Shown here: positions 2,170 to 13,632 of the stretch, one piece after another
Position numbering within the stretch: the stretch's first letter is position 1
Layout of the letters: every line of letters starts with the position of its first letter
Origin: Candidatus Fimousia stercorigallinarum
GTDB lineage: Bacteria > Bacillota > Clostridia > Lachnospirales > Lachnospiraceae
Assembly (NCBI GenBank): GCA_018715775.1
Contig: DVKZ01000029.1
Coordinates: 1-64,000, forward strand
Length of the DNA: 64,000 nt
Reading direction: 5' to 3'
Position numbers and translations under genes: made by a program
The notes under the pieces: generated by a model
What the model saw: only the letters and a program-made list of their open reading frames with translations
What the model was told of the DNA's origin: nothing
The model's database searches: none

Positions 2170-3192
2170 TTAACAGATTCTCGGAAGAAGCTCTCCTCCC
2201 GGCTGCGGCAGCAGTGTTTCCGCGCCAATTTCTGTCGTAACAACTACTTTTCCAGGCATAGACTCTGTAATCTCACCGATCACTGCTGCATTCTTTGAAT
2301 ACTTCCCTTTATGAAGCGTCTCCACCAAGGTATCTGCCTGTTCTGCCGGAGCGATCACAACGAGCGTTCCTTCATTCGCCAAATACAACGGATCCAGCCC
2401 AAGCATGCCGCAGACTCCGCTGACCGCAGGATCAACTGGAATTGCAGAAGAATCCAGCTTTACCCCGACATTACTTTCCGCTGCAATTTCATATAAGACC
2501 GTTCCGACACCGCCACGCGTAGCGTCACGGATAACATGAATATCCTTTGTCGTTTCCAACATCATCTCTACTGTTCCCCAAAGAGGTGCGCAGTCACTCT
2601 GGATATCCGCTTCAATACCGAGATTTTCCCTTGCGAGCAGGATCGTACATCCGTGCCGTCCGATATCACCGGTTACAATGATCTTATCCCCTGGCTTTGC
2701 AAATGCTCCGGAAGTGCTGACACCGTCAACGATCTTCCCAATCCCGGTAGTCGTAATAAACAAGTGATCAACTTGTCCTCTGCCGGCAACTTTCGTATCT
2801 CCGGCTACGATCTTTACCCCTGCTTCTTTTGCTGTTTTTTCCATATAAGAAGCGATCTCCTCCAGTTTATCCATAGAAAATCCTTCTTCAATAATAAAAG
2901 AACAGGTCATATACAATGGTTTTGCTCCCATGCAGGCCAGATCATTAACGGTTCCGCAGATGCTGAGTTTTCCGATATTTCCGCCATTAAATTCATAAGG
3001 AGAGACGATGAAACCATCCGTAGACATAGCGATCTTTCCGTTAACCTCCAATACCGCCGCATCATCGGCCGTAAACTGTGGATTTGAAAAATGGGCTTTA
3101 AATACCTGATCAATAAGTTCTGATGTCTGCTTTCCCCCTGCACCATGTGCCAAAGTCACTATTTTTCCTGATTTCACTTTCATTTCCTCCAT
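2170..3192 (-). CDS. hypE: Hydrogenase maturation protein HypE (carbamoyl dehydratase)
   Basis: LAHGAGGKQTSELI..., DGFIVSPYEFNGGNIGKLSICGTVNDLACMGAKP, DATRGGVGTVLYEIA; ends in the conserved C-terminal PRIC cysteine. Confidence 0.97.
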   Translation of the reverse strand: MEEMKVKSGKIVTLAHGAGGKQTSELIDQVFKAHFSNPQFTADDAAVLEVNGKIAMSTDGFIVSPYEFNGGNIGKLSICGTVNDLACMGAKPLYMTCSFIIEEGFSMDKLEEIASYMEKTAKEAGVKIVAGDTKVAGRGQVDHLFITTTGIGKIVDGVSTSGAFAKPGDKIIVTGDIGRHGCTILLARENLGIEADIQSDCAPLWGTVEMMLETTKDIHVIRDATRGGVGTVLYEIAAESNVGVKLDSSAIPVDPAVSGVCGMLGLDPLYLANEGTLVVIAPAEQADTLVETLHKGKYSKNAAVIGEITESMPGKVVVTTEIGAETLLPQPGGELLPRIC

Positions 3193-4242
3193 TTATTCCA
3201 TTCCATATTGATAATAGGCAGAACAGCTTCCTTCGTTCGAAACCATACATGCACCAATCGGATGCTGCGGGGTACAGCCCCGGCCAAATACTTTGCAGTC
3301 CGATGGTTTACATTTTCCCTGCAGGACATCACCGCATCGGCAGGCCGGATTCGGTTTCCCCTGCATCTTCGGAAGATGGAATTTCAATCTTGCGTCATAT
3401 GCCTCATATGCCTGACGAAGTTTCAGTCCGGACATTGGGATCACGCCAAGACCGCGCCATTCCGAATCACACGGTTCCATTACTTCCTTGATCATCTTCT
3501 GTGCCGCCGGATTTCCTTCCGGACGGACAACGCGCGGATAGCAATTAACAAAATACGATTTTTTCGTCTTGGATTTTTCAATAATCACCGCAAGTGCCGT
3601 CAACAGTTCCTTTGCCGTAAATCCTGCAATGACACCGGAAATCACGCCATCTTGTGCCAGCTTTTTACATTCTTCTTCTCCGGTGATCGCATTGACATGT
3701 CCTGGGTAAAGAAACGCATCTGCACTTCCTTTCAACGCCTGATATGCATTTGGCATCGTTTTATTAGCCGTTAAAATAGAGAAATTCTGCAGGTTCTCCT
3801 CTTTTGCTTTTTTTACTGCAAGGCAGGAAGACGGCGTTGTCGTCTCAAATCCAACCGATAAAAACACAACCTGTTCTTCCGGATGTCCGACCGCATATTC
3901 CACCGCATCAAGCGGGGTATAGACAATCTGTATGTTTGCCCCCTCCGCTCTTGCTCCCGCAAGACTCATTGTTGTTCCTGGAACCCGGATCAAGTCGCCA
4001 AACGTGCAGATCGTAACCTGATGATCCAGCGCAAGCATAACCGCCTCATCAATAAATCCAATCGGTGTCACACAGACCGGGCAGCCGGGACCGGAGATCA
4101 GCTCGATCGTCTCCGGCAGGATCTTCCGTATTCCGAGACGGAAAATTTCATGTGTATGCGTTCCACATACTTCCATAATTCGAAGCTTCGGTCCATCATA
4201 AGACTTGATGATCTCCAAAGCACTTTTCTTTTGTTCAGCCAT
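3193..4242 (-). CDS. hypD: Hydrogenase maturation protein HypD (Fe-S scaffold for Fe(CN)2CO)
   Basis: MEVCGTHTHEIFR, GPGCPVCVTP, GFETTTP, C-terminal Cys-rich CRCGDVLQGKCKPSDCKVFGRGCTP. Confidence 0.97.
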   Translation of the reverse strand: MAEQKKSALEIIKSYDGPKLRIMEVCGTHTHEIFRLGIRKILPETIELISGPGCPVCVTPIGFIDEAVMLALDHQVTICTFGDLIRVPGTTMSLAGARAEGANIQIVYTPLDAVEYAVGHPEEQVVFLSVGFETTTPSSCLAVKKAKEENLQNFSILTANKTMPNAYQALKGSADAFLYPGHVNAITGEEECKKLAQDGVISGVIAGFTAKELLTALAVIIEKSKTKKSYFVNCYPRVVRPEGNPAAQKMIKEVMEPCDSEWRGLGVIPMSGLKLRQAYEAYDARLKFHLPKMQGKPNPACRCGDVLQGKCKPSDCKVFGRGCTPQHPIGACMVSNEGSCSAYYQYGME

Positions 4243-4448
4243 TATAACATCTCCATAATATCATCCGTTTCATTGGTATCATCATCCGTAATTTTCGCAA
4301 TTGCAATTCCTGCATGAACCATGACATAATCACCAGGTTCCAGCTCTTCGATCAGTTCCGCGGAAACCTTTCTCTTTGCCCCGGATGCATCGACAACTGC
4401 CATTCCGTCTTTTACTCCAACTACTTTCGCTGCTAAACCTACACACAT
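4242..4448 (-). CDS. hypC: Hydrogenase maturation chaperone HypC/HybG family
   Basis: MCVGLAAKVVGV...GDYVMVHAGIAIAKI; start reset to the MC start at 4448 (listed ORF starts at 4544); TAATG overlap with hypD. Confidence 0.93.
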   Translation of the reverse strand: MCVGLAAKVVGVKDGMAVVDASGAKRKVSAELIEELEPGDYVMVHAGIAIAKITDDDTNETDDIMEML

Positions 4449-4467
4449 AAATGATATCCTCCTAAAT

Positions 4468-6831
4468 CTATTTCTCTTTTTCTCGTCTCCTACAAAGAGT
4501 ATGCATAGCAAAAACCGCCTGCCCAACAGCAATCCCTCCATCATTTGGCGGGATCAGGCTGTGTTTCAGTACAAGAAAACCCTCCTCGGTCAATCGATGA
4601 TCACAAATCTTTAACAGCAGCTGATTTTGAAAAACACCGCCACTTAATGCACAGGTGGTTATCTTTGTACATTCCGATGCCCGTTTACAGCCATGCACGA
4701 TTTGTTCTGCCAACAAAGCATGGAACAAATAAGCAAGCTCACCGCTGTCCTCTCCTGCAATTTTTTTATCCGTCAACATCCGGACAAGTCGATGCGTCGG
4801 CAAAAGAAACCGCTCTTCTGCCTCTTCTGGATCTGTTAATTTTTTCCATTCCTCTTTGTATTTCTCTTTTATAAAATCAAGTGTACCACAATCCAGGCGT
4901 TCTTCATAGGCTTCTGCCGCAAATTGCAGGGATGTAGAAGCCTCGCCCTCAAATGTCGATGAAAGACGGATTCCAAGAATGGCACTGACCGCATCAAACA
5001 GGCGCCCTGCGCTCGTTGAATCTACGCTGTTGATCCTTCTTCTTCTCATCTGCGCATAGACATTCCGTGTCGTTTCCTCACATAGTCCCAATTTTGCGGC
5101 GATTTCCGCTGCATCATCCTTATATAGATCATTCAACATCGATACTGCAATCCTCCAGCCTTCTTTTGCAGAAAGATCGCCGCCGATCTGTACAAATGGC
5201 ATAATGCTTCCAATCCGTTCAAATCCATCATAAGAAGCTTTCAAAAATTCGCCGCCCCAAATTGTTCCATCGATTCCATAACCGGTGCCGTCAAAAGAGA
5301 CTCCGATCACCGGCTTGCTATGATCATTTTCCGCCATACAAGAAAGAACATGGGCAAAATGATGCTGGACAGGAAGCACTTCGATTCCCTGATCCATTGC
5401 CACTACCGTCGTATTGTATTTCGGATGCATATCACAGGCAACGATCACCGGATCCGTTTCTAACAGTTCTTCCATCCGCCGGATAGACTCTTCTAACGCT
5501 TTTACCGTTCTTAAATCCGCCATATCCCCAACATAAGGAGACGGATAAAATAATTGATTTTTACCGAGACAGAATGTATTTTTCAATTCACCGCCTACCG
5601 CCAGCACCTGTCCTTCAAATGTATCAGAAAGCATCAGCGGCAGAGGAGCATATCCTCTGGAACGCCGGATCATATACGGTTTTCCATCGTAAAAATCCAT
5701 AACCGAATCATCTGCACGAAGGCGGATTTTCCGATTGTGAGATAACATAAGATCGCAAAAAGACGAAAGTTCTTTTATTGCATCTTCATCCGTGCGGCAG
5801 ATCGGTGCTCCGGAAACATTGCCGCTTGTCATAACAAAGCAGTCCGTTGTCATCTCTATCCCATCATTATAATCAAATAAAAGCATCTGGACCGGAGCGT
5901 ATGGAAGCATCACTCCGACTTTCGGGTTCTCTGGTGCCACGGACGGGGCCAGACAACTTTCCTTTTTCTTTTTTAATAAAATGATGGGCTTTTGATGACC
6001 ATCTAAGATCTCCTCGCACTTTTTCGGGACGAAACATTCTCTCTCCACCGTATCCATATTTCTCATCATAACTGCAAATGGCTTCACCGGTCTTGTTTTT
6101 AACATTCGAAGCCGGGCAACCGCTTCTTCGTTCGAAGCATCACAGCACAGATGAAATCCGCCGATTCCTTTTACTGCCACAATCCTGCCATCGATGATCG
6201 CTTTTCGAACGAGTGTGATCGCATCCCTTCCCCGTTCTTTCCTGCCTATCAGATATACTTCCGGTCCGCAGTCATTACAGCAGACAGGCTGCGCATCGTA
6301 TCTTCTCGTTTCTGCATGTGTATATTCATATTCACATTCCGGACACATCGGAAATTCTCCCATACTCGTCCGTACTCTGTCGTATGGCATAGAATCCAGG
6401 ATAGTAAGCCGGGGACCGCATGCCGTACAATTGATGAACGGATGCATGTATCTCCGGTTTTTCGGATCATATAATTCTGCCTGGCATTTTTTGCAGGTTG
6501 CAATATCCGGAGAAACAAAGATGTCTCCTTCTTCCTTTTTACTCTCGATAATGTCAAACCGCTCAAAACTGCGGTATGCAATCGGTGAGATATCTGTTTT
6601 TAAAACAGCAGAACGTTCCGGCGGCTGTTTTTCCAGATCATCCAGAAACCGGTCCAGCTGTTCCTGCGTGCCGGTTGCATAAATTTCCACATAAGAACCT
6701 TTATTGGCAACGCTTCCTGTAATTCCTGCACGGTCTGCGATCCGACTGACAAACGGGCGGAAACCGACGCCCTGAACGATCCCATACACTCTGATCACAT
6801 TTGTTTTATATTCCAATTTCTCCATTGTCAT
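4468..6831 (-). CDS. hypF: Carbamoyltransferase HypF
   Basis: Acylphosphatase domain VIRVYGIVQGVGFRPFV, two CxxC zinc fingers (CKKC..CTAC, CPEC..CNDC), YrdC domain, Kae1-like VQHHFAHVLSCMAEND; start 6831 or 6825, overlapping the upstream gene. Confidence 0.96.
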   Translation of the reverse strand: MTMEKLEYKTNVIRVYGIVQGVGFRPFVSRIADRAGITGSVANKGSYVEIYATGTQEQLDRFLDDLEKQPPERSAVLKTDISPIAYRSFERFDIIESKKEEGDIFVSPDIATCKKCQAELYDPKNRRYMHPFINCTACGPRLTILDSMPYDRVRTSMGEFPMCPECEYEYTHAETRRYDAQPVCCNDCGPEVYLIGRKERGRDAITLVRKAIIDGRIVAVKGIGGFHLCCDASNEEAVARLRMLKTRPVKPFAVMMRNMDTVERECFVPKKCEEILDGHQKPIILLKKKKESCLAPSVAPENPKVGVMLPYAPVQMLLFDYNDGIEMTTDCFVMTSGNVSGAPICRTDEDAIKELSSFCDLMLSHNRKIRLRADDSVMDFYDGKPYMIRRSRGYAPLPLMLSDTFEGQVLAVGGELKNTFCLGKNQLFYPSPYVGDMADLRTVKALEESIRRMEELLETDPVIVACDMHPKYNTTVVAMDQGIEVLPVQHHFAHVLSCMAENDHSKPVIGVSFDGTGYGIDGTIWGGEFLKASYDGFERIGSIMPFVQIGGDLSAKEGWRIAVSMLNDLYKDDAAEIAAKLGLCEETTRNVYAQMRRRRINSVDSTSAGRLFDAVSAILGIRLSSTFEGEASTSLQFAAEAYEERLDCGTLDFIKEKYKEEWKKLTDPEEAEERFLLPTHRLVRMLTDKKIAGEDSGELAYLFHALLAEQIVHGCKRASECTKITTCALSGGVFQNQLLLKICDHRLTEEGFLVLKHSLIPPNDGGIAVGQAVFAMHTLCRRREKEK

Positions 6832-7873
6832 GTTCGTATTCCCCTGATACAGCAAAATGCGGAACATGGATAAATTCACCATCAAACTCTCTTAAAGCAA
6901 GAGAAAGATAAGCATCACCAATGACCGTATCAAATTGCTGTTCTGCCACATAATCCGCAAATCCCTGTTCTGTCTTCAACATAACATCCTGCGGCTGTTT
7001 CCACTCTTTCTTCTGCATAAACCACGTAGCGGCTGTCACTTCGACATCGTGGTATTTTAAAATCTCTTTTCGTATTTCATTCGCCATAACCTGCTGATGG
7101 ATAACTAAAATTTTCTTTCCGTTCAAATCACAGATCTGCTTCTTCAGCTTTTTATCCAAAATCGGATAGCCGGCCTCATATGGAATACCAAAGGTTTTTT
7201 CCATATATTTTGCCGCCTTTAATCCCGACGGCGCGACGACGAGATTTTTCTTGACCGAAGCTGCTTTTTTTAACGTATCCAGTCCATCTCCCATTCCATA
7301 ACAATAAACATGGTCATAGCCTTCTTCTTTTAATACATGACGAATTGTCTCATCGGCAGTCACGCTGCTTAAATTTAAAGGTGTTGCGCCGATCACGCCG
7401 ATGGCATTTTCCTTTTCTTTGACATCGGGATCAACGAATTTCCGGAACAGTTCCATGTAAGTTTCTTCTTCTCCGGTGTCATACAGCTCTGTTCCGGTAC
7501 ATTCTACCGTTATAACCGGAAGCTGGCACCGCTTTTCGGCCATTCGCTTTAATGCCTTAAAGTCCGTTGCGATCACCGCCGGTACAGGAGTACCGATGAT
7601 CGCAGCAAAACTGGCATCCACTTTTTGCGCCGTATCCTTCAATTTCTCAATCAGTCGGTCGTCTCTTCCGAGGATCGCATCCATATCACGAAGACCGGCA
7701 CTAAAAATCGCACTTTTGCGAACAAACCACCGCGGTTCATCGAATCCGCATATATTTCCGGTGCATCCACCGGCATCGCAAATAACCGTAATTCCTCCGA
7801 GATCATATAATACAGAAACCGCACCCGACTGATCCGGTGCAAAAGGAGACAGATATTTTAATAACCCTTTCAT
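6806..7873 (-). CDS. Nitrogenase component-1-like protein (set 1, short subunit)
   Basis: LYDLGGITVICDAGGCTGNICGFDEPRWF, AAIIGTPVPAVIATDF, IGATPLNLS; lies in a NifH-like/component-1 gene cluster; paralogous to 9919..11070. Confidence 0.85.
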   Translation of the reverse strand: MKGLLKYLSPFAPDQSGAVSVLYDLGGITVICDAGGCTGNICGFDEPRWFVRKSAIFSAGLRDMDAILGRDDRLIEKLKDTAQKVDASFAAIIGTPVPAVIATDFKALKRMAEKRCQLPVITVECTGTELYDTGEEETYMELFRKFVDPDVKEKENAIGVIGATPLNLSSVTADETIRHVLKEEGYDHVYCYGMGDGLDTLKKAASVKKNLVVAPSGLKAAKYMEKTFGIPYEAGYPILDKKLKKQICDLNGKKILVIHQQVMANEIRKEILKYHDVEVTAATWFMQKKEWKQPQDVMLKTEQGFADYVAEQQFDTVIGDAYLSLALREFDGEFIHVPHFAVSGEYEHDNGEIGI

Positions 7874-9172
7874 CTACTGTTCCCCCCTTTCCATCGCTTC
7901 TGTCAATTCTTCAAATAAATGGCGTAGTCCGGAATAACCAAACGGCTGGCGCTCCTGATTCCAAGGAACATTGACACAATCCGGATGATAATACTCCGCG
8001 TCTTTTCCGATCGTAATATCCGCAACGCTGTCGGAACAATCATAGTTGAGCATGGACGGCGATAAATTCGTATAAATCTTCGTTTCCGGACTCAATTCAG
8101 CGATTTTCTTAATATAGATAAAATTCTCATCAGATACCGTTCCATAAATTTCCGAAACTTGATGTCCGTATCGCAGCAGCGCAAGCGCCAGTTCAAAGGA
8201 ACCCGCATTCATACACTCTCCGATCGCAAATGTTGTATTCGGATATTTTTCCGTAAAATCATCAACCGCTTTTTTCGCACTGTCATAATATTTCTGATCA
8301 TCAAAGGTTACGCCAAGCGCCCCGCCAAGCAGTTCATACTGTTTATGAATTTTATCAATCTGATACAATCTTGTCAGCTCGATCCCCGGAATTCCAAGCC
8401 GGCGTTTGATATCTTCCGCCGCCAGGCGTGCCTCCGGATTTAAGATCAAATTAAAGTTTGCCTCTGCCATTGACAGATATTCCTCAAAATCTTTGCATCG
8501 TGCGATTTCCAGTATCTTTTTTACGCCAATCTGATGCAAGAGATCATACAGTTCAGAATCATCTAAAAACGGGGCAAATTCTCCGATCAGATTGACGGTT
8601 GTCGGTTTCTTTTTCCGCGGTTCTAACAGAGCATAGATAGATTTTCGTACCTGCGTCATCGGCGGTACCCGTCCTTCTCTGGTCAGAGCATACATATAAC
8701 ACGGAAGTACCGGAATGCCCGCATAATCCGAAGCCTTTCTGCAGACGCGGTCCATATCCGTTCCAAGCAGTGCATCCACACAAGTAATACAGATCATCAC
8801 GGCTGTCGGCGTTTCCTCAAGTGAGTCCGCTACTTCCTTCACCGCTTTTGAAATCTTATTTAAATGTCTACCGGTAACAATATCGGTATCATCCATCAAC
8901 AGATAGAAAAATCGTTCGCTGTATCCGCCGATCTTACTCAGCATCGTCGTATTCCTTCCACAGCACCCCGGTGCAACTAACAGCATAACGGAACCAGGAA
9001 TTGCAAGTCCTGCCCGTTTCACTCCGAACCCCTGTGCTCCCGGGGAGTTAAAGGAGAGGGTTGCCGGAGAACTGTAGATCAGATGTTTGGATGAAAGCAA
9101 CTCATCCGGAATCTGTCCCTTGCCCCTTTTAGCAAGTTCTGCAGCAGTAATATAATATACTTCTCGTTCCAT
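7874..9172 (-). CDS. Nitrogenase component-1-like protein (set 1, long subunit)
   Basis: LLVAPGCCGRNT and AVMICITCVDALLGTDMDRVC, matching component-1 Cys / CxxxxxGxD patterns; adjacent to NifH-like gene. Confidence 0.88.
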   Translation of the reverse strand: MEREVYYITAAELAKRGKGQIPDELLSSKHLIYSSPATLSFNSPGAQGFGVKRAGLAIPGSVMLLVAPGCCGRNTTMLSKIGGYSERFFYLLMDDTDIVTGRHLNKISKAVKEVADSLEETPTAVMICITCVDALLGTDMDRVCRKASDYAGIPVLPCYMYALTREGRVPPMTQVRKSIYALLEPRKKKPTTVNLIGEFAPFLDDSELYDLLHQIGVKKILEIARCKDFEEYLSMAEANFNLILNPEARLAAEDIKRRLGIPGIELTRLYQIDKIHKQYELLGGALGVTFDDQKYYDSAKKAVDDFTEKYPNTTFAIGECMNAGSFELALALLRYGHQVSEIYGTVSDENFIYIKKIAELSPETKIYTNLSPSMLNYDCSDSVADITIGKDAEYYHPDCVNVPWNQERQPFGYSGLRHLFEELTEAMERGEQ

Positions 9173-9925
9173 TTATTCCTCCTCAAGCAGACGTTTTGCC
9201 AGATCCAGATAGATCTTGCTGATTTCCAGGTTCGGATTTCCTTCGATCACTGTTTTCCCCTGATCTTCATAACGGATAATATCATCGCTTCTTGGGATAT
9301 CGGCAATGATCTCAAGATTACTGTTTTTGGCAAACTCTTCTACCTTTTTTCTTTCATTTTCTACATTTCTTCTATTTAAAATAATCCCTTTTACGGTTGC
9401 ATATCCACGGTCTTCAAAATTATCCACCGCCGTTTTAATATTGTTGGCTGCATATAATGCCATCTTTTCGCCGGAAGTAACGATCAGAATCTCATTGGCA
9501 TATCCTTCCCGGATAGGAGCAGCAAAACCGCCGCAGACAACATCCCCGAGGACGTCATATAAGACAACATCCGGTTTATATGTCTCAAACAATTCGAGAT
9601 CCTCTAACAGGCTGAATGTCGTAATGATCCCGCGTCCCGCACAGCCAAGTCCTGGCGTCGGTCCGCCGGTTTCAATACACAAGACGCCTCCAAATCCTTC
9701 TTTCGCAATCTGTTCAATTTCTTCCGGTTCTTCATCAAACTCCCGCAGATAATTCATTACCGGTCTGACCGGATTTCCACCGAGCAAGTTGATCGTTGAA
9801 TCCGCTTTCGGATCACAGCCGATCTGGATTACTTTTTTTCCAAGGCTTGCAAATGCTGCAGCCAGATTTCCGGTCGTCGTTGACTTTCCGATACCGCCTT
9901 TTCCATATATCGCAAGTTTTAACAT
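9173..9925 (-). CDS. NifH-like nitrogenase iron-protein family ATPase (set 1)
   Basis: [10 protein letters not shown]-loop, [17 protein letters not shown] and [17 protein letters not shown] Fe-S ligand motifs. Confidence 0.96.
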
Positions 9926-11070
9926 GATGGTTCCTCCATATAAGTTAACGTTCTATTCACCAGATCAGGATTTTGATCATCATAAATCCTCCCTGAAAAT
10001 GCCTCATGCGGCAGATCATAAAAATCCATCTGCCCGCATAATGCACGATAAAGCGGATCCGCAATCACACCATCCGCATATTTCAACTGTTCAATCAGAT
10101 CATCTTCCTCCGGGGTGTACCGATCGCCTTCTCGTAATATCTCTGTAATCGTATCCAGTGGCGTCAGGACCTGAATATCGAGATCATATTCCATCTCAAT
10201 TGCCGTTGCCAACGATGTGGCAAATACGCTTTCCCCAATTAGGCACAATCTCTTTATTTTCCCCTTCCCTGCTTTTTTTGCTGCATAAAGAGACTGACCA
10301 TTTTTTGCTGTTCGATCTAACAGTCCGGCCAGATAATCCGCATAGTCTTTTCCAAACGGAACACCGACTACATAGGGAATTCCAAAACGTTCTTCCATCA
10401 GTCTGGCCGCCGCAATGCCTCCATAGGAAATAACCAGATTTACATGTGCTTTGGATGCCTGTTTGATCTCCTCCAAAGAGCTTCCCATCGCAAAACAACT
10501 GTTTACACTCCACCCTTGTTTCGTAAGCCACGTCCGAATTGAATCAATACTGCCATTTAAGGAAAAATCCAGCGGCGTCGCACCGATAATATTGACCGAC
10601 GGCAGTTTGGTTTGTTCCATCTGATCTGTGCAAAATCGATCCACAATCTTATGAAAAGCCATGGAAATTCCTTCTGTATAATTTCGCATGCCATTTGCAG
10701 CAAATCCAAACGCCGGAATCCCGGTTTCTGCCTCCACGATCATGGCGATCGCTTCCAGATCCGTCCCGATCATATAGGGAATCGGCGCACCGACGATCGC
10801 AATAAATTCCGGATGTAACTTCTCCGCTGTTGTAAGAATGTCACGGATCAGTTTTTCATCATCACCCATGATTGCTTCCATTTCCGAGATTGCTGAGATA
10901 AAGATCATACTGTCAATATCATACCATCTCGGTTCATCGTGCGTTGTATATGTTGAATTACATCCCGATGCATCATGCATCACAACCATTCCGCCTAATT
11001 CATACAGTGCGGAACAAATGCCGAATTCATCAGATGAATATGTAGAAATTAATCCTGCTACCTGTCTCAT
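9919..11070 (-). CDS. Nitrogenase component-1-like protein (set 2, short subunit)
   Basis: [81 protein letters not shown]; shares motifs with 6806..7873. Confidence 0.86.
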
Positions 11071-12395
11071 ATGCAGCTCTCACACCCGTAACCCTTTCTC
11101 TGAATGATCTCCTTCCTTGGTTTTTCATTCAGATATGCATCTATCATCAGTTCCGCAATCTGGCGGATGCCGTCATATCCAAACAGTCCGCCGCTTTCCA
11201 CAACATTGACAAAATGATCTGTCCCGGTAAAATACGCCGCTTTCTGACCGACCGCCAAGATCGTTTCATCTCGATGCCGTTTCAGATACCGCATATTTGG
11301 CTGGTTCGTGGCATAAATGTCAATATCCGGAAAATGTTCTTTCATCCAAAGAAAATCCTCCCGTTCTTCCGGTAAGAATGTATCTGCAAAAATTTCTGTT
11401 ACATGAAATCCATGCTGCAAAAGCATCTTTGTAAAACTCAAGATTCGAAATGTAAACGTATAATCGACAGCGATCTTCGTATTGCCGATACACTGTAAAG
11501 CCCTTTCTAATGCTGCTTCTGCCGCTTTTCGGAATCCACGGACATCCGGATGTACCATTCCAAGCATATCCGCTAATCTACAATAATTTTGCTCTAATTC
11601 ATCCATATCAAACACAAAAGGAAGATAACGATACTCCTGTCCGATCCGCTTTTTCAGATCCTGTGCTGCCGGAATCGCGATCGGTTCATAGACCAGGTTC
11701 AATTTGGCTTGTGCCATATCCAGATAATCATCAAATGTCCGGCACCAGTTCAGCATTTGCAGTTCATATCCTGCCTGCCGAAGGATCATGACCAATTCGG
11801 AGGAAGCTGATATTTCCAGATTGCTTCCGATCAGATTGATTTTTTTCGGATTCTTTTCTTTTTCCTCTAACAGACTAAAAAGCTGAAGACGCATCTTCTG
11901 ATCAGGAGTCAGTCCGCTCTTTCGAAGCGTCGGGATCATGTAACAGTCCATAAATCGAATATCCGGATACTTTTCTCTTAATGTATCAAATACGAGCTGC
12001 TGATTATAAGCCAGAAAGAAATGCTGACAGCTGATAAATAACAAAATCGCTTTCGGACGATACGGAAGCTTATCCAGTATGTCCGCCACACCGTTAATCA
12101 TCAGATTTTCCACAGAACCATCAATGACATTTTCTTCACGGATGATGATCGACGAATACCGGTCTAACGCTCCCATTTCAGCAGCAGTTAACACAACACC
12201 ACGCAGACAGCCTTGTGCACAAACAAAAATCTGATGCGATTCCGGGATCAGCATTCCCGTATGAACAATATTCCACGTTCCTCTCGCAGGAGAACTGTAT
12301 TCCAGTCCCTGCTCAAAAGGAGCCGGAAAAAAAGCTTCCCTGATTTTTCTTTTTGCACCGGAAGTATTCTCTTCCCGTCTAAGTCTTGTTAACAT
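11067..12395 (-). CDS. Nitrogenase component-1-like protein (set 2, long subunit)
   Basis: LEYSSPA, IFVCAQGCLRG, AILLFISCQHFF, INLIG; ATGA overlap with 9919..11070; paralogous in layout to 7874..9172. Confidence 0.83.
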   Translation of the reverse strand: MLTRLRREENTSGAKRKIREAFFPAPFEQGLEYSSPARGTWNIVHTGMLIPESHQIFVCAQGCLRGVVLTAAEMGALDRYSSIIIREENVIDGSVENLMINGVADILDKLPYRPKAILLFISCQHFFLAYNQQLVFDTLREKYPDIRFMDCYMIPTLRKSGLTPDQKMRLQLFSLLEEKEKNPKKINLIGSNLEISASSELVMILRQAGYELQMLNWCRTFDDYLDMAQAKLNLVYEPIAIPAAQDLKKRIGQEYRYLPFVFDMDELEQNYCRLADMLGMVHPDVRGFRKAAEAALERALQCIGNTKIAVDYTFTFRILSFTKMLLQHGFHVTEIFADTFLPEEREDFLWMKEHFPDIDIYATNQPNMRYLKRHRDETILAVGQKAAYFTGTDHFVNVVESGGLFGYDGIRQIAELMIDAYLNEKPRKEIIQRKGYGCESCI

Positions 12396-12407: not shown

Positions 12408-13166
12408 TTATTGCTCATCCAATTGTTTTAGGATCTGTTTTGCAAGCGCCCGGTACTGTTTGGCCATACGGCTGTCCGGAAATGCTTCCAATACCGTTTT
12501 CTTCAACAATTCCGCTTCCTGCACCGTTTCAGAAAAATCCAGCTCCCCGAGAATTGATGTATGAAGTTCGTCACTCAATTCTTTCACTTTTGCATATTCG
12601 TCTTTGACATTCCTTTTATTCAGGATCAATCCGCCGAGTCCTGCATATCCGCGTCCTTTAAAGTTATCAATTGCCATTGCGATATTGGCTGCTGCATAAA
12701 TGGACATATTTTCACCGGACGTAACGATAAACACCTGATCGGCATACCCGGATCGCATCGGCATCGAAAACCCGCCGCACACGACGTCTCCCAACACATC
12801 ATACAAAACGATGTCCGGCTGATAAATCTCATATGCGCCTTTCTCCTTCAGTTTTTCCAATGCGGTAATAATTCCGCGGCCGGCACATCCAAGCCCCGGG
12901 ATCGGTCCACCGGCTTCCACACAGACAACACCGCCATATCCAATCTTCACGACCTCATCCAATTCAAACATCTGCTGCTTTTTACGAACGACCTCTAATA
13001 CGGTAGGAAGCGGCTCTCCATGCCGTAAGGCGATTGTCGAATCCGCCTTCGGATCACATCCGATCTGCATCACCTTTCTTCCCTGTTCTGCAAAAGCAGC
13101 AGAAAGATTTGATACGATCGTCGATTTCCCGATGCCTCCCTTTCCATAAATAGCCAGTTTTTTCAT
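12408..13166 (-). CDS. NifH-like nitrogenase iron-protein family ATPase (set 2)
   Basis: [43 protein letters not shown]. Confidence 0.96.
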
Positions 13167-13177
13167 AACGATCCTCC

Positions 13178-13441
13178 TTATTTTTTGCCAGACGGAAGCT
13201 TCGAATACATCGTTTTCGCACTGACACCAGAAATTTTCCCGAGTTTTCCAGCAATCTGATTAATGACATCCGTCGGCGCATCGATCGCAATGCTGATAAT
13301 ATTCAGATTCTTTTCTCGATAAGGAAGTCCCATTCTTCCAAGAATATACATGCCATAATCGTGCAAGATTTCATTTACATCACCTGTGGCATCAACATCC
13401 TCTACTATGATACCGATAATTGCAATTCTTGTTTCCATCAT
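13178..13441 (-). CDS. TM1266-like putative iron-only hydrogenase system regulator (ACT-like small protein)
   Basis: [77 protein letters not shown] matches the TM1266 family pattern. Confidence 0.85.
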
Positions 13442-13448
13442 ACACTCC

Positions 13449-13632
13449 TTTTATAAAATAAAAAAACCGCATCTTTAAGATAAAGATGCAGTAATCGACA
13501 TTTCTATACGTCCTCTGATCACAAGATTTTAACTGGATAAAATAATGTAAAAAGATAGACGATTCCCTGTTAAAAACGCATCTTTAATCTCAATGATCAG
13601 TTATCATCCGATAACTGAAAATTTTAATCTCA
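13449..13632 (-). promoter_or_regulatory. 5' leader of the nitrogenase-like/hyp operon with candidate attenuator (unclassified riboswitch-like RNA)
   Basis: Terminator stem 13469-13477/13481-13489 with T-tract 13460-13466 just before the RBS; the 11-nt sequence cgcatctttaa occurs at 13468-13478 and again at 13577-13587, giving an alternative partner for the terminator 5' arm; upstream hairpin 13598-13605/13610-13617. Confidence 0.72.

Follow-up and report, generated by a model that had tools for sequence, protein, structure and literature searches.

Gene content and organization of the locus

We analyzed a 64,000-nucleotide stretch of the genome of Candidatus Fimousia stercorigallinarum (Lachnospiraceae; contig DVKZ01000029.1, positions 1–64,000), hereafter the window, which encodes the hydrogenase maturation proteins HypF, HypC, HypD, and HypE. 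These genes are the distal part of an 11-gene operon (13441–2170, minus strand), which was not described in the initial annotation and which also encodes two sets of nitrogenase-like proteins. Comparison of genes and genomes suggests that HypFCDE and the two nitrogenase-like complexes quite probably replace HydG as the source of Fe–CN/CO for [FeFe]-hydrogenase. The operon is tightly packed, with neighboring genes overlapping or separated by gaps of 0–19 nt, and its genes are as follows, in order of transcription:

13178–13441, minus strand: TM1266-family ACT-domain protein, "iron-only hydrogenase system putative regulator" (TIGR03959, 114.7 bits vs. cut-off 60.8; PF21699)
12408–13166, minus strand: NH1, NifH-like ATP-dependent reductase of set 1 (TIGR01287, 335 bits, below the NifH equivalog cut-off of 394)
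11067–12395, minus strand: ND1, NifD/NifE-like subunit of set 1 (PF00148, 64 bits; no NCBIfam match)
9919–11070, minus strand: NK1, NifK/NifN-like subunit of set 1 (PF00148, 123.6 bits)
9173–9925, minus strand: NH2, NifH-like ATP-dependent reductase of set 2 (PF00142, 298 bits; phmmer match to 1cp2 NifH, E 1e-73)
7874–9172, minus strand: ND2, NifD/NifE-like subunit of set 2 (PF00148, 108 bits)
6806–7873, minus strand: NK2, short NifK/NifN-like subunit of set 2 (PF00148, 75 bits)
4468–6831, minus strand: HypF, carbamoyltransferase, ATG start at 6831 (TIGR00143, 752 bits vs. cut-off 466)
4242–4448, minus strand: HypC, chaperone (TIGR00074, 63.7 bits vs. cut-off 48)
3193–4242, minus strand: HypD, Fe(CN)2CO scaffold (PF01924, 455 bits; NCBIfam, 400.9 vs. 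192.8)
2170–3192, minus strand: HypE with the C-terminal PRIC cysteine (TIGR02124, 420.6 bits vs. cut-off 251.6)

All four Hyp proteins exceeded the curated NCBIfam cut-offs. Among 52–61 operon homologues, Cys340 of HypE (PRIC), Cys26/54/57 and the C-terminal Fe-S cysteines of HypD, and the Zn-finger cysteines of HypF were invariant or nearly so. The native start of HypC (MCVGLA) is at 4448; the listed open reading frame (ORF) begins at 4544. The operon thus carries the HypCDEF machinery, with equivalog-level HypD, HypE, and HypF, together with HypC and with the catalytic cysteines kept, and the scores and residues bear out the earlier view that the HypF-HypC-HypD-HypE set is intact. A whole-genome search revealed no second HypF and no other full-length HypE; HypD has a second copy on another contig, C135.

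Upstream of the operon, a strong promoter-like match (13661–13634, 11 of 12 positions) was found, although such matches are not more common here than in shuffled sequence. A terminator-like hairpin with a T-run lies between this site and the first gene (13466–13492, minus strand) and is a possible leader attenuator of the operon.

The nitrogenase-like proteins

Both sets combine a NifH-like ATPase with conserved cysteines and NifDK/EN-like folds, which places them in the nitrogenase superfamily. Invariant cysteines were C37, C82, C94, and C130 in NH1 (48 homologues), C95 and C131 in NH2 (65 homologues), and C37 and C42 in NK2 (63 homologues); among operon homologues, C59, C63, and C123 of ND1, C37 of NK1, and C70, C71, C128, C131, and C144 of ND2 were likewise invariant. 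The cysteines of the ND and NK subunits would suffice to hold inter-subunit Fe-S clusters. In comparisons with Protein Data Bank (PDB) profiles, NifE was the best match of both NK1 (4.8e-19) and ND2 (7e-14), and the alignments placed a residue other than cysteine at the NifD/NifE cofactor-ligand position in both proteins. The AlphaFold2 model of ND1 (pLDDT 82.7) had nitrogenase and NifEN chains as its best Foldseek matches; that of ND2 (pLDDT 81.7) matched 4wes_B with TM 0.70. The proteins do not classify as N2-fixing nitrogenases or as NifEN proper, as the family scores fall below the equivalog cut-offs and the cofactor cysteine is missing in ND2 and NK1. The retained cysteines, the NifE-closest profiles, the lack of the cofactor cysteine, and the models matching nitrogenase/NifEN agree more with a role in assembly than with fixation of N2, although they do not prove it.

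Three ORFs of about twice the usual length suggest fusions of NifD-like and NifK-like subunits: L037 6671–9229 (ND1), L082 9977–12415 (ND2), and L087 10001–12463 (ND2). They support the prediction that each ND/NK pair works as one complex.

Distribution of the operon

One scan with ND2 yielded 77 loci. The order NH2-ND2-NK2-HypF-HypC-HypD-HypE recurred in essentially every locus that was long enough, HypC often being too short for the synteny search to call. This makes the Hyp genes a constant component of an operon with two nitrogenase-like sets. Set 1 (NH1-ND1-NK1) and TM1266 lie upstream in the Lachnospiraceae type, to which the window belongs, and downstream in the Clostridium type. The hosts are Lachnospiraceae, Clostridium, Megamonas, and metagenome-assembled genomes (MAGs) labelled Spirochaetaceae and Synergistaceae. 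The loci L073, L068, and L087 come from MAGs with the latter two labels and from Megamonas, with only part of the operon on the short L068 contig; their placement suggests horizontal transfer or, for the MAGs, mis-binning.

Nickel genes and [NiFe]-hydrogenases

The 64 kb carry no hypA, hypB, or [NiFe] subunit, in agreement with the initial annotation; the only ones of the genome are on contig C135. The further expectation that they would be absent from the whole genome failed, as C135 carries hypA, hypB, and the second hypD along with genes for an Ech-type [NiFe]-hydrogenase, in which the two cysteine motifs are both present (RVCGIC...DPCISC). On this contig (locus L005, 10178–17380), the Ech genes are followed by hypA, hypB, a small ORF at the hypC position, which is probably hypC, and hypD. 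Since hypE and hypF were found in the window only, their products probably also serve the Ech hydrogenase, and such a shared role is likely in genomes with Ech.

Across the operon-carrying genomes the picture was different. HypD was present in all 50, HypB scored above the cut-off in 18 and in 32 did not, and a [NiFe] large subunit was detected in 11 and not found in 39. In those 39 genomes HypFCDE therefore lack their textbook client. In a phylogenetic tree the operon HypDs (n = 54) formed a clade apart from nine hydrogenase-linked HypDs (support 0.90), and C140 is a residue near-diagnostic between the two groups. The idea of a nickel-free acceptor of the Fe(CN)2CO unit thus held across the relatives and not for the window genome itself; hypAB together with a [NiFe]-hydrogenase in the same genome and in most operon genomes, the pattern named beforehand as speaking against it, was not what the survey gave. 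We consider that a nickel-free acceptor is probably real.

In two operon genomes without hydrogenase, hypA and hypB flank an oxidoreductase of about 930 amino acids (flavin/Fe-S, pyridine-nucleotide type; L126 95–3981 and L129 154–3944), for which a nickel role outside hydrogenase is possible. A tandem duplicate of hypB occurs in L125 (3878–5201) and in genomes G015, G016, and G025, with no [NiFe]-hydrogenase detected in the genome. In the stretches read, HypB of hydrogenase-free genomes stood with hypA and the oxidoreductase, alone, or in tandem, with HypFCDE not alongside.

Linkage to [FeFe]-hydrogenase maturation and absence of HydG

Clustering of flanking genes showed that HydF is the most frequent neighbor of the operon and HydE is among the next. 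HydE and/or HydF occurred in the operon or its flanks at 22 of 76 loci, often abutting and at differing ends: hydE-hydF-nifH in L039 (4 bp apart), TM-hydF-hydE-nifH in L073, hypE-hydE in L082, nifK-hydF in L087, and nifK-hydE in L055. Because the genes abut different operon ends, this linkage appears to have arisen more than once. Family scores confirmed both proteins in L039 and L063, and HydF in L087. In the window genome, HydE (561 bits), HydF (589 bits), and [FeFe]-hydrogenases of group A (464 bits) and B1 (578 bits) were all above the cut-offs. The [FeFe] H-domain was found in 51 of 51 operon genomes; the count for HydF covers the named loci and the class sample described below, in which it was present in 6 of 6 ND2 genomes.

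The canonical HydEFG set is nevertheless incomplete: the HydG profile gave no match above the cut-off in 49 of the 51 genomes, including C. ljungdahlii. The possibility that HydG was present and missed was rejected, as the inspected matches of about 180–220 bits adjoin thiG (the window genome, A. hallii, Anaerostipes, C. luticellarii, and one more Clostridium MAG). In the window genome the best HydG-profile match is ThiH of the thi operon (519 bits to ThiH), and a weaker match, of the 55–83-bit class, is HydE by score. C. ljungdahlii and C. ragsdalei had only weak matches (68 and 67 bits, respectively), the former reading as a HydE-like protein.

A class-wide sample of Clostridia was searched with a joined query of HydG, ND2, and HydF, with listed matches down to E ~6e-138 and three candidates scored per genome. 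Among the matches listed, 105 genomes were resolved; 99 had HydG, six had ND2, and none had both. One genus (g52) held both states, four of its genomes having ND2 and one HydG. Fisher tests of the exclusion gave 6e-10 for resolved genomes only and 2e-4 with unresolved genomes counted as neither, relatedness being ignored.

The TM1266 gene, the HydE/HydF linkage, the universal [FeFe]-hydrogenase, the missing HydG, and the frequent absence of [NiFe]-hydrogenase all point to the H-cluster. The initial annotation named no acceptor; the best candidate is likely the H-cluster of [FeFe]-hydrogenase, reached via the nitrogenase-like complexes.

Proposed pathway and its alternatives

In known systems, HypF and HypE make thiocyanate from carbamoyl phosphate, and HypCD hold Fe(CN)2CO. 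HydG converts tyrosine to an Fe(CO)2CN synthon, after which completion of the [2Fe] cluster falls to HydE and HydF. We consider it rather likely that the operon encodes another, non-homologous way to make the H-cluster, in which HypFCDE and two ATP-driven nitrogenase-like complexes would take carbamoyl phosphate, and possibly CO2, rather than tyrosine as the starting material for the Fe–CO/CN synthon. HypF and HypE would convert carbamoyl phosphate to thiocyanate, and HypC-HypD would assemble from it a unit of the form Fe(CN)x(CO). Using ATP and low-potential electrons, the two NifEN-like complexes, driven by their NifH-like partners, would accept, reduce, and remodel this unit, perhaps supplying additional CO by reduction of CO2. 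Their product would be the Fe(CO)(CN) synthon otherwise made by HydG from tyrosine; HydE and HydF would build it up to the full [2Fe] cluster and load this into HydA. The chemical steps, the order of the two complexes, and the CO source are conjectural.

Several points weigh against this proposal. The Hyp unit has 2 CN to 1 CO and the H-cluster 2 CN to 3 CO, so that a ligand change or an extra CO source must be assumed; this mismatch may be the very point where the nitrogenase-like complexes act, by ligand remodelling and/or by forming CO from CO2. The function of the operon is deduced from genes and genomes, and most operon genomes are incomplete MAGs. HydE and HydF do not adjoin the operon in the window itself, and C. 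drakei and C. thailandense carry both HydG above the cut-off and the operon. In the class sample, the list cut-off and the limit of three candidates per genome left 28 of the 133 matching genomes without an assignment, and the six genomes with ND2 come from a small number of lineages. Finally, C. autoethanogenum is reported to have a putative HydG, and other acetogens to have atypical HydG-like radical SAM proteins (PMC9431212).

An alternative that we regard as unlikely is that the nitrogenase-like proteins are themselves the recipients of Fe(CN)2CO from HypFCDE, which would yield a novel reductase or cofactor with cyanide and CO ligands and no relation to H-cluster assembly; the loss of HydG would then be coincidental. 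HypF always adjoins a NifDK-like set, and the non-cysteine residue at the FeMo-cofactor position of ND2 and NK1 means that any cofactor would differ from those of known nitrogenases; however, TM1266, the repeated hydE/hydF linkage, and the presence of [FeFe]-hydrogenase in all genomes with HydG missing from nearly all are left unexplained.

It is very improbable that the [FeFe]-hydrogenase is matured by a divergent HydG or by free metabolic CO and CN, with the operon serving another role. Both possibilities have been proposed for acetogens (PMC9431212), but the HydG-profile matches of C. ljungdahlii and C. ragsdalei are weak, the stronger ones inspected lie in thiamine operons, and in vitro activation by free ligands reached about 1% of normal (PMC9431212).

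The least credible explanation, that these are ordinary [NiFe]-hydrogenase maturation genes merely separated from hypAB and the hydrogenase, agrees with the Ech, hypA, hypB, and single hypE and hypF of the window genome, but as a general explanation it is refuted by the 39 of 50 genomes without the enzyme, besides the 32 without HypB above the cut-off, the hypD of the Ech locus's own, and the distinct clade of operon HypDs.

A HydG-independent route of this kind would explain [FeFe]-hydrogenase maturation in C. ljungdahlii-type acetogens and gut Lachnospiraceae, a gap stated in PMC9431212. The two uncharacterised nitrogenase-like complexes would gain a function, and the CN and CO of [FeFe]-hydrogenase a second biosynthetic origin, which would matter for H2 metabolism in the gut and for gas fermentation. 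A single pathway would join the assembly machineries of [NiFe]-hydrogenase, [FeFe]-hydrogenase, and nitrogenase. Acetogens amenable to genetics, and E. coli, allow a direct test of the proposal.

Comparison with previous reports and known systems

"NifHEN-like proteins associated with hydrogenase maturation proteins" were reported in 2012 in Coprococcus catus and other Firmicutes, with a suggested role in assembling the metallocluster of an active site (PMC3464626). That locus is very probably of the same type as the operon described here; the passage concerned does not mention the absence of HydG, the HydE/HydF linkage, or an [FeFe] acceptor. In 2022, hydG was reported missing in C. ljungdahlii, C. 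carboxidivorans, C. ragsdalei, C. coskatii, and C. sp. AWRP, which, except for C. carboxidivorans, have HypCDEF without HypAB; this was stated to be a puzzle with no straightforward explanation (PMC9431212). The same paper cites the purification of an active NADP-dependent [FeFe]-hydrogenase from C. autoethanogenum; the close relative C. ljungdahlii has no HydG above the cut-off. The operon is not mentioned in the main text of a transposon study of C. autoethanogenum (PMC9004356). No publication joining missing HydG, NifHEN-like genes, and Hyp genes was found in a search that did not cover most subscription papers and preprints.

With dark-operative protochlorophyllide oxidoreductase (DPOR), CfbCD, and methylthio-alkane reductase the nitrogenase-like proteins of the operon share the superfamily and the two-component architecture, but they score below all equivalog cut-offs and lie in another operon context. 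They resemble the NifEN/NifH cofactor assembly system in their NifH-like ATPases and NifE-like folds, with NifE as the best PDB profile match; they differ from it in the two short-subunit sets, the lack of the cofactor-ligand cysteine in ND2 and NK1, and the Hyp and Hyd linkage. Compared with HypABCDEF maturation of [NiFe]-hydrogenases, the operon HypC, HypD, HypE, and HypF are true family members with their catalytic residues, but the operon lacks HypA and HypB, has a fixed NifHDK-like linkage, and is usually found in genomes with no [NiFe]-hydrogenase. Unlike the window genome, most operon genomes do not combine a [NiFe]-hydrogenase with HypAB. As in HydEFG maturation, HydE, HydF, HydA, and TM1266 are present or linked, and the same H-cluster product is expected; the difference is that operon genomes mostly lack HydG and have HypFCDE and two nitrogenase-like complexes instead.

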